The notes under the pieces were generated by a model, which saw nothing but the letters and a program-made list of their open reading frames with translations, made no database searches and was not told the DNA's origin. From NCBI GenBank assembly GCA_945878455.1, contig CAMCUA010000006.1:1-32034 (forward strand): 32,034 bases of DNA, in the 5' to 3' direction. Positions 4,492 through 6,466 of the stretch are shown here, one piece after another; the first letter of the stretch is position 1; the number at the start of each line of letters is the position of its first letter. This DNA is from Asaia bogorensis. Lineage in GTDB: Bacteria > Pseudomonadota > Alphaproteobacteria > Rhodospirillales > CAMCUA01. The position numbers and the translations under genes were made by a program.

Positions 4492-5667
4492 TCAGTGAGC
4501 CCCGAACGCGGACTTGAGCGTGGCGACGAGATCGGTGCGCTCCCAAGAGAATCCGCCGTCGGCATCGGGCGCCCGGCCGAAGTGGCCATAGGCGGCGGTG
4601 CGCGCATAGATCGGCTTATTGAGGCCAAGATGTTCGCGGATGCCGCGCGGCGACAAGTTCATCGCCTTTTGCAGGACCATAGAAAGCCGATCCTCGGCAA
4701 CCTGTCCCGTACCCTGAGTGTCGACGTAAACGGACAACGGCTTGGACACGCCAATGGCATAGGCAACCTGGATGAGGCACTTCTCCGCCAAACCTGCGGC
4801 GACGACGTTCTTCGCCAGATAGCGCGCCGCATAGGCCGCGGAGCGGTCGACTTTGGTTGGGTCCTTGCCCGAGAAGGCACCGCCGCCATGTGGTGCAGCG
4901 CCGCCGTAAGTATCAACGATGATCTTGCGGCCGGTCAGCCCGGCATCTCCGTCCGGCCCGCCGATCACAAAGCGGCCCGTGGGATTGACGTAGAATTCCG
5001 CCTCCGGGCACATCCAGCCTTTCGGCAAGACCTTGAGCACATGCGGCCGGACGATTTCGCGGATGGCATCCTGACTGAGGTTTTCAGCATGTTGGGTCGA
5101 CACGACAACACTCGTCGCCCCAATCGGCTTGCCGTTGACGTAGCGTAGTGTCACCTGGCTCTTCGCGTCGGGCCCGAGGCCCGGCTCCGCACCGGAATGA
5201 CGGGCTTCAGCCAGGGACCGCAAGATGGCATGAGAGTAATGGATCGGGGCCGGCATTAACGCCTCGGTCTCGGAGCAGGCGAAACCGAACATCAGGCCCT
5301 GATCGCCGGCGCCTTCGTCCTTATTGCCAGCGGCATCGACGCCTTGTGCGATGTCCATGGACTGGGCATGCAGATAGATAGCGACGTCGGCATGCTTCCA
5401 ATGGAAGCCCTCCTGTTCGTAGCCGATATCCCTCACCGCGTGGCGAACCACTTCTTCAAGCGTCGCCGACGTTATCGAGGCGGGACCGCGCACTTCGCCG
5501 GCCAGCATGATGCGGTTGGTCGTGCACATCGTTTCGCAAGCGACCCGCGAATGCGGATCGGCCGTCAGAAACGTATCGACCACCGCATCGGAAATGCGGT
5601 CGCTGACCTTGTCGGGATGTCCTTCGGACACCGACTCGCTGGTGAACAGGTAATCGGAATTCGCCAT
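4492..5667 (-). CDS. metK: S-adenosylmethionine synthetase
   Basis: [31 protein letters not shown]..., [22 protein letters not shown], etc.; SD-like GGGGG upstream of ATG at 5667. Confidence 0.97.
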
Positions 5668-5746: not shown

Positions 5747-5804
5747 CGCACCCACTTAGAGCCTTTTTTCGCGTGGTAGCAAGCGGTCCAAATCTATCCA
5801 CGCC
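5747..5804 (-). promoter_or_regulatory. Candidate SAM-II (SAM_alpha)-like riboswitch in the metK leader
   Basis: Minus strand: GCGTGG-ATAGATTTGGACCGCTTGCTA-CCACGC-GAAAAAAGGCTCTAAGTGGGT. Perfect P1 (GCGTGG/CCACGC), GATTTGG and GCTTGC in the loop, and a downstream AGGC..CTAA..GGGT segment able to form a pseudoknot with GCTT and ACC of the loop, as in SAM-II. It ends about 80 nt upstream of the metK start. Confidence 0.65.
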
Positions 5805-5925: not shown

Positions 5926-6402
5926 TTATTCTTCCGACGGCGCGTTGGCTATGGACTTCACCAGTTCGAACAGGCGCTTGCGAATCTGCGGGCTAGTGAT
6001 GCGATAATAGGCGCGAACAAGCTCCAGCGTCTCGCGTTTGGTTAGTGGATCGGGCTCGAAACTGGTTTGGGCCTGATCGGCAAAACCACCAACCGGACGA
6101 CCGGAATTGGCCTTTACGTCGTCGGCCATATCGTCGAAGAAAAAGGATACGGGTATGTCCAACACCTTGCTCAACTCAAAGAGCCGGCTGGCGCCGATAC
6201 GATTGGCACCTCGTTCGTATTTCTGAATCTGTTGAAATGTCAGCCCGATAGCCTGGCCCAGCTTTTCCTGGCTCAGACCCAGCAAGGTGCGGCGTAATCT
6301 GACCCGCCGGCCAACATGCACATCGACGGGCCGCGGCGTCCCCAATACGCGATCTTCATCCGCCCCTGACCGACTCCCCGGCTTTCTTCCACGCTTCGCC
6401 AT
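5926..6402 (-). CDS. XRE-family helix-turn-helix transcriptional regulator
   Basis: MAKRGRKPGSRSG... VGRRVRLRRTLLGLSQEKLGQAIGLTFQQIQKYERGANRIGASRLFELSKVLDIPVSFFFDD; the HTH-metK linkage is usual in alphaproteobacteria. Confidence 0.92.
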   Translation of the reverse strand: MAKRGRKPGSRSGADEDRVLGTPRPVDVHVGRRVRLRRTLLGLSQEKLGQAIGLTFQQIQKYERGANRIGASRLFELSKVLDIPVSFFFDDMADDVKANSGRPVGGFADQAQTSFEPDPLTKRETLELVRAYYRITSPQIRKRLFELVKSIANAPSEE

Positions 6403-6466
6403 CTGCTCATGCCCGCTTCTGAGTGGTTTACCCTGCGTGCCAATCCAGCCCCCTGGAGGCACAGGT

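Follow-up and report, generated by a model that had tools for sequence, protein, structure and literature searches.

A SAM-II-related candidate aptamer in the metK leader of Asaia bogorensis and related alphaproteobacteria

Which kind of RNA element, if any, precedes the S-adenosylmethionine (SAM) synthetase gene metK in contig CAMCUA010000006.1 of Asaia bogorensis (assembly GCA_945878455.1)? The stretch analysed, called the window below, spans 32,034 nucleotides (nt). In it metK occupies positions 4492–5667 of the minus strand (ATG at 5667), assigned by the Pfam domains PF00438, PF02772 and PF02773 and by tblastn to related metK genes. An earlier note, made from the sequence, had proposed a SAM-II-like riboswitch with a divergent core upstream of this gene. 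The comparative evidence points to a SAM-II-type pseudoknot aptamer in the metK 5′ leader that probably senses SAM and thereby reduces production of MetK, with translation as the most likely level of control. It would be a SAM-II-related variant rather than a typical member, sharing the fold, most pocket bases and the gene context of SAM-II and departing from it in Rfam score and at the pocket base A47.

Recurrence of the element upstream of metK

The element lies on the minus strand at 5804–5750, 83 nt before the start codon of metK, with the layout GCGTGG-ATA-GATTTGGACCGCTTGC-TA-CCACGC-G-AAAAAAGGC-TCTAAGTGGGT. A search of 701 bases of the leader with all 4227 Rfam families returned RF01726 (SAM-II long loop) as the top match over 5804–5750 (30.4 bits, E 0.00098; gathering threshold 44 bits) and RF00521 (SAM_alpha) as the second-best family (17.2 bits; threshold 36 bits). 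By Rfam score the element therefore falls short of SAM-II membership, and the whole window has no match at the gathering (curated) thresholds. RF01727 (SAM/SAH) and RF01826 (SAM-V) gave no covariance-model match at E ≤ 10 in the 701-base search. The comparison with Rfam SAM families that the earlier note had suggested thus yields a match, best to RF01726, that stays below threshold.

RF01726 was also searched over 60 related genomes, many of the genomes compared here being metagenome-assembled. The matches are weak but recurrent, none of the 60 relatives reaches the RF01726 threshold, and only one of 20 leaders (L211, 38.5 bits) reaches that of RF00521. Of the 31 best-scoring loci that were fetched, 26 are immediately followed by metK, while canonical SAM-II elements preceding a metZ-type gene make up the other five, one of which lies in the window's own genome (locus L002, G000:C39:1489-1554, minus strand; RF00521, 66.4 bits, A47 present). 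A covariance model, R1, built from the 26 metK leaders finds matches at E ≤ 0.01 in 195 of the 297 genomes of the order and at E < 1e-6 in 172 of them (count from the result table). Outside the order, nine further genomes from four other families of the class match at E < 1e-6; weaker matches in the class do not adjoin metK and are mostly canonical SAM-II. Among 80 named metK relatives a strong match occurs only in L033, L034 and L036, metagenome-assembled genomes labelled Rhodospirillales, Proteobacteria and Rhodospirillaceae, respectively. The own genome has a single copy of the R1-type element. The RF01726 E value and the recurrence at metK argue that the element is more than a chance match. 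The presence of a SAM-II-like element upstream of metK, as first proposed, is thus borne out.

Aptamer fold and ligand pocket

The fold was assessed in an alignment of 100 leaders (A2) fitted to R1, which fixes only the stem P1. All 100 leaders have metK directly downstream, the methionine/SAM gene context of SAM-II. P1 is formed by GCGTGG (5803–5798) and CCACGC (5776–5771), the latter located by the Rfam match and covariation. It is followed, on the 3′ side, by AAAAAAGGCTCTAAGTGGGT (5769–5750). This segment begins with the A-rich strand L3 (AAAAAA, 5769–5764), a conserved A-run that, by analogy to SAM-II, would occupy the P1 minor groove. Loop L1, GAUUUGGACC (5794–5785, beginning with GATTTGG), comprises the triplex strand G8-A9-U10-U11-U12, with A9–U12 invariant and G8 present in 96/100 leaders, and C16-C17, which start the pseudoknot helix P2. 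The P2 5′ strand G18-C19-U20-U21-G22-C23 (GCTTGC, 5784–5779) faces the 3′ strand U42-C43-U44-A45-A46-G47-U48-G49-G50-G51-U52 (5760–5750, G47 at 5755). The conserved P2 pairs C16-C17-G18-C19-U20-U21 with A45-A46-G47-U48-G49-G50, plus G22 with C43. The earlier note had described a perfect P1, a SAM-II arrangement and a pseudoknot; the pseudoknot exists, but the pairing of GCTT with AGGC given for it does not.

Both helices, the P1 hairpin and the pseudoknot P2 to the 3′ tail, are those of SAM-II and are paired in 99.4% (P1) and 95.5% (P2) of the cells of the alignment, compared with only 25–46% in a control with slid strands. Both sides change together in five pairs: in P1, C-G to U-A or A-U, G-C to A-U and U-A to C-G; in P2, C-G to G-C and U-A. 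Such changes fill 15 cells versus 3.5 in shuffles, of which 0 or 1 of 500 scored as high; these shuffles ignore ancestry. Several of the paired changes occur in different families. A possible extension of P1 by U13-A32 and G14-C31 is paired at no more than 81.6% in the 26 leaders. The outlying leaders L147–L149, from a family outside the order, have a GCGG/CCGC P1, the tail CUAAGCCGG and G17-C49 in place of Y17-G49, a replacement that argues independently for the extended P2. The alignment of metK leaders from relatives, also suggested in the earlier note, revealed strong conservation, and both P1 and P2 show compensatory changes.

Pocket positions are numbered after the SAM-II structure 2QWY (PMC3764141). 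U10–U12, U20–C23, C43, U44, A45 and A46 are invariant in the 100 leaders, so that the triplex and pocket bases of SAM-II (U10–U12, U20–C23, G42–A46) are retained with the exception of position 42. There, G is found in 88 leaders, A in seven and U in five, including the window. In the window, the place of G42-C43 could be taken by a GC that lies two bases upstream. All 100 metK leaders have G at position 47, opposite C19 in 98 and U19 in two. By contrast, A47 is present in all 18 canonical SAM-II elements examined, the metZ element of the own genome included, and the Rfam consensus of both RF01726 and RF00521 reads GCUAAA. A deletion of A47 was considered and dropped: the SAM-II/SAM-V register sets C19 opposite position 47, which makes the change a substitution of A47 by G. 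The altered core put forward in the earlier note stands, but its key feature is this substitution, common to all relatives, and not the GCUCUAAG insertion with G42 changed to U, which is a minority form. The proposal of a divergent SAM-II-type aptamer is sustained by the sub-threshold RF01726 match, the 100 metK leaders, the compensatory changes and the near-invariant pocket.

A47 contacts the amino and carboxylate groups of SAM, at its methionine end, and is completely conserved in SAM-II (PMC3764141). Its replacement by G in the metK group means that the methionine end of the ligand must be held another way, or that the ligand differs. In the major groove, C19-G47 may present a donor and acceptors to the amino-acid end. 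The invariant U11 and U21, which would face the sulfonium, favour SAM over S-adenosylhomocysteine (SAH) as ligand. The group provides a natural experiment on ligand recognition, in which every copy carries a substitution at the base that reads the methionine end in SAM-II and SAM-V and the remaining pocket has stayed fixed. The own-genome metZ element, with its normal A47, would serve as a natural internal control against which to compare the metK variant with G47.

The leader downstream of the aptamer

The earlier note had assigned a possible role in the expression platform to a TTCTTCC...GGAAGAA hairpin between the aptamer and metK. This hairpin (TTCTTCC-CCACGAGA-GGAAGAA, 5741–5720) exists, but only the same-genus genome (L011) shares its sequence, with the same stem and a changed loop. 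Elsewhere this variable linker has other sequences, of which 58 of the 67 tested fold with at least 4 bp. The likelier platform is a putative CCCC:GGGG helix 3′ of the linker hairpin, which would hide the Shine-Dalgarno (SD) sequence and is found beside a conserved GGUCC box. In the window the anti-SD strand GATGCCCC (5716–5709) pairs with GGGGGTATC (5680–5672), which contains the SD sequence GGGGG 8 nt before the metK ATG and is paired in predicted folds. The box (5708–5704), complementary to GGACC of L1, is recognised in 86/100 leaders and linked to L1. Nearly all leaders carry CCC(C/T)-x-GGUCC(A), mostly 26–46 nt before the start codon, plus a G-rich SD region. The partner of the CCC segment is the SD sequence, in the window GAUGCCCC pairing with GGGGGUAUC.

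The sequestor segments fit the SD sequence of their own leader better than swapped ones (1/5000 permutations as good; 162/20000 among 54 less similar leaders). Clear paired changes between the two are found in L152 (CUACU/AGUAG) and in L180-type leaders (CUCCGGU/ACCGGAG). L1, too, fits the downstream region of its own leader better than swapped L1s, none of 5000 permutations being as good. GGAUC loops are paired with GAUCC boxes in L004, L239, L223 and L225, and the box is kept in all 66 leaders whose loop reads GGA(C/T) versus 8/18 with other loops. Box losses fall on several branches of a rough tree built from the first ~100 MetK residues, whose resolution is too low for a firm count of independent events. 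A GATCCA box in L021 was set aside as a regular-expression artefact. The covariation of the box with the loop, and their joint loss, suggest that translation is controlled from a distance, and the balance leans slightly towards a functional coupling of L1 with the box. Leaders L203, L206, L207, L227 and L232 have UUUC loops, A42 and no GGUCC box, with a differing downstream organisation; this subgroup may have a different platform.

Control by transcription termination, with the linker hairpin or another stem as platform, would agree with the terminators that follow many canonical SAM-II elements (PMC2258182). The minus strand of the metK leader has no terminator-like site, however, only 9/100 leaders have five consecutive T between aptamer and metK, and the linker hairpin sequence is restricted to one genus, which together make control by termination decidedly improbable.

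Proposed mechanism, rival explanations and upstream features

The metK element is proposed to act as an OFF switch for translation that responds to SAM and has the architecture of SAM-II. The presumed ligand, SAM, would be bound by the aptamer with its sulfonium still read by U11/U21. U44, which reads the adenine in SAM-II, is retained, and recognition of the amino-acid end would be different, perhaps through the C19-G47 major-groove edge. In the bound state the downstream helix would hide the SD sequence. Without ligand, L1 (UUGGACC) could pair with the GGUCC box inside the SD hairpin and hinder helix formation, probably during RNA synthesis. The outcome would be product feedback on SAM synthetase, supplied, if this mechanism is true, for a large alphaproteobacterial group.

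Several points weigh against this mechanism. The SAM-V core superimposes on that of SAM-II, and replacement of its equivalent A50 by purine weakens SAM binding, while inosine, which is G-like, severely reduces it (PMC6061858), so that a G47 aptamer cannot be assumed to bind SAM. Shared ancestry is not fully accounted for in the permutation tests. Sixteen leaders with a GACC loop keep the box yet pair with it by only ~4 bp, and L014 combines a GCACC loop with an unchanged box, a clear mismatch. For the window, equilibrium folding predicts a sequestor helix that is stable with or without L1. The SD sequence of the window is unpaired at 0.21 versus 0.20, with no effect of L1, and the mean values are 0.30 versus 0.25. 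Such folding was rejected as proof of an L1-box switch, to which it lends weak support, and the switch would have to be kinetic, the SD helix being stable in either case.

The same fold, triplex bases and long-loop junction as RF01726, together with the RF00521 score of L211 above threshold, are also what an ordinary long-loop SAM-II below the Rfam threshold would display, G47 doing the job of A47. This explanation is rather unlikely, given that both Rfam consensus sequences keep GCUAAA, that all 100 metK leaders but none of the 18 canonical elements have G47, that the corresponding inosine change harms SAM-V, and that P2 of the metK group forms a longer, uninterrupted helix. At the other extreme, the metK group might form a separate SAM-II-related class, in which C19-G47 reads the amino-acid end (or hardly reads it, altering selectivity) and L1 and the GGUCC box form a new long-range platform in a distant SD-sequestering hairpin; this can be put forward only tentatively. 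A changed ligand, either a SAM relative with less weight on the methionine end (e.g. SAH, decarboxylated SAM or methylthioadenosine) or a different metabolite from the cycle, finds a parallel in variant SAM aptamers for which other ligands, such as spermidine, are reported (PMC10853860). It is improbable, since the controlled gene is always metK and the invariant U11 and U21, facing the positive sulfonium, indicate a charged ligand such as SAM. The strong primary-sequence conservation and a promoter ~40–60 nt upstream could in turn reflect a protein binding site or conservation at the DNA level around the promoter. The conservation falls, however, on the bases of the SAM-II pocket, variation in P1 takes the form of paired changes and the SAM-II covariance-model score is clear, which leaves this explanation with very little probability.

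Among known systems, RF01726, described from Bacteroidetes and marine sequences, shares with the SAM-II-related variant proposed here the additional bases that separate P1 from the GAUUU strand, the P2 pseudoknot, the A-rich L3 and the GCUAA core. The metK group differs from it by scoring below the gathering threshold, by G47 with C19, by a longer P2, by its constant association with metK in alphaproteobacteria and by a separate downstream platform. RF00521 occurs in the same bacterial class and has the same pocket bases except at 47 (and at 42 in 12/100 leaders), whereas its canonical elements read GCUAAA and lack inserted bases beside P1. Canonical SAM_alpha elements are reported for metA/X/Y/Z and not for metK (PMC4239095). 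SAM-V has the same pocket architecture and controls translation (PMC6061858), but its SD sequence is in its own P2a, while that of the metK leader in the window is 70 nt downstream of the aptamer. SAM/SAH riboswitches are likewise small pseudoknots at metK in alphaproteobacteria, namely in Rhodobacterales (PMC2864571); the metK leader of the window, as noted, has no match to their model at E ≤ 10. A comparative survey with Rfam models placed SAM_alpha only in Rhizobiales and Rhodobacterales, and control of metK only under SAM/SAH in Rhodobacterales (PMC4239095). No description of the G47 metK group was found in the open-access literature, and the group appears to be previously undescribed. Threshold-based Rfam annotation misses nearly all of its copies.

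Upstream of the aptamer, a -35 box TTGACG (5872–5867, minus strand) marks the likely metK promoter, TTGAC being found ~58 nt before P1 in 83/100 leaders, although a simple sigma-70 scan does not call it. It is followed after 17 nt by the -10-like hexamer GAAAAG (5849–5844), and relatives have GAAAAG, GACAAG or CACAAA at the same spacing. This conserved pattern places the aptamer within the 5′ leader. Between promoter and P1 there is a small hairpin, GCCTCCTTGAGGC (5840–5828), and hairpins of other sequence were seen by eye at the same place in many relatives; this variable hairpin is possibly a 5′ stabilising stem. A gene for a regulator with an XRE-type helix-turn-helix (5926–6462, minus strand) lies directly upstream of the metK leader.
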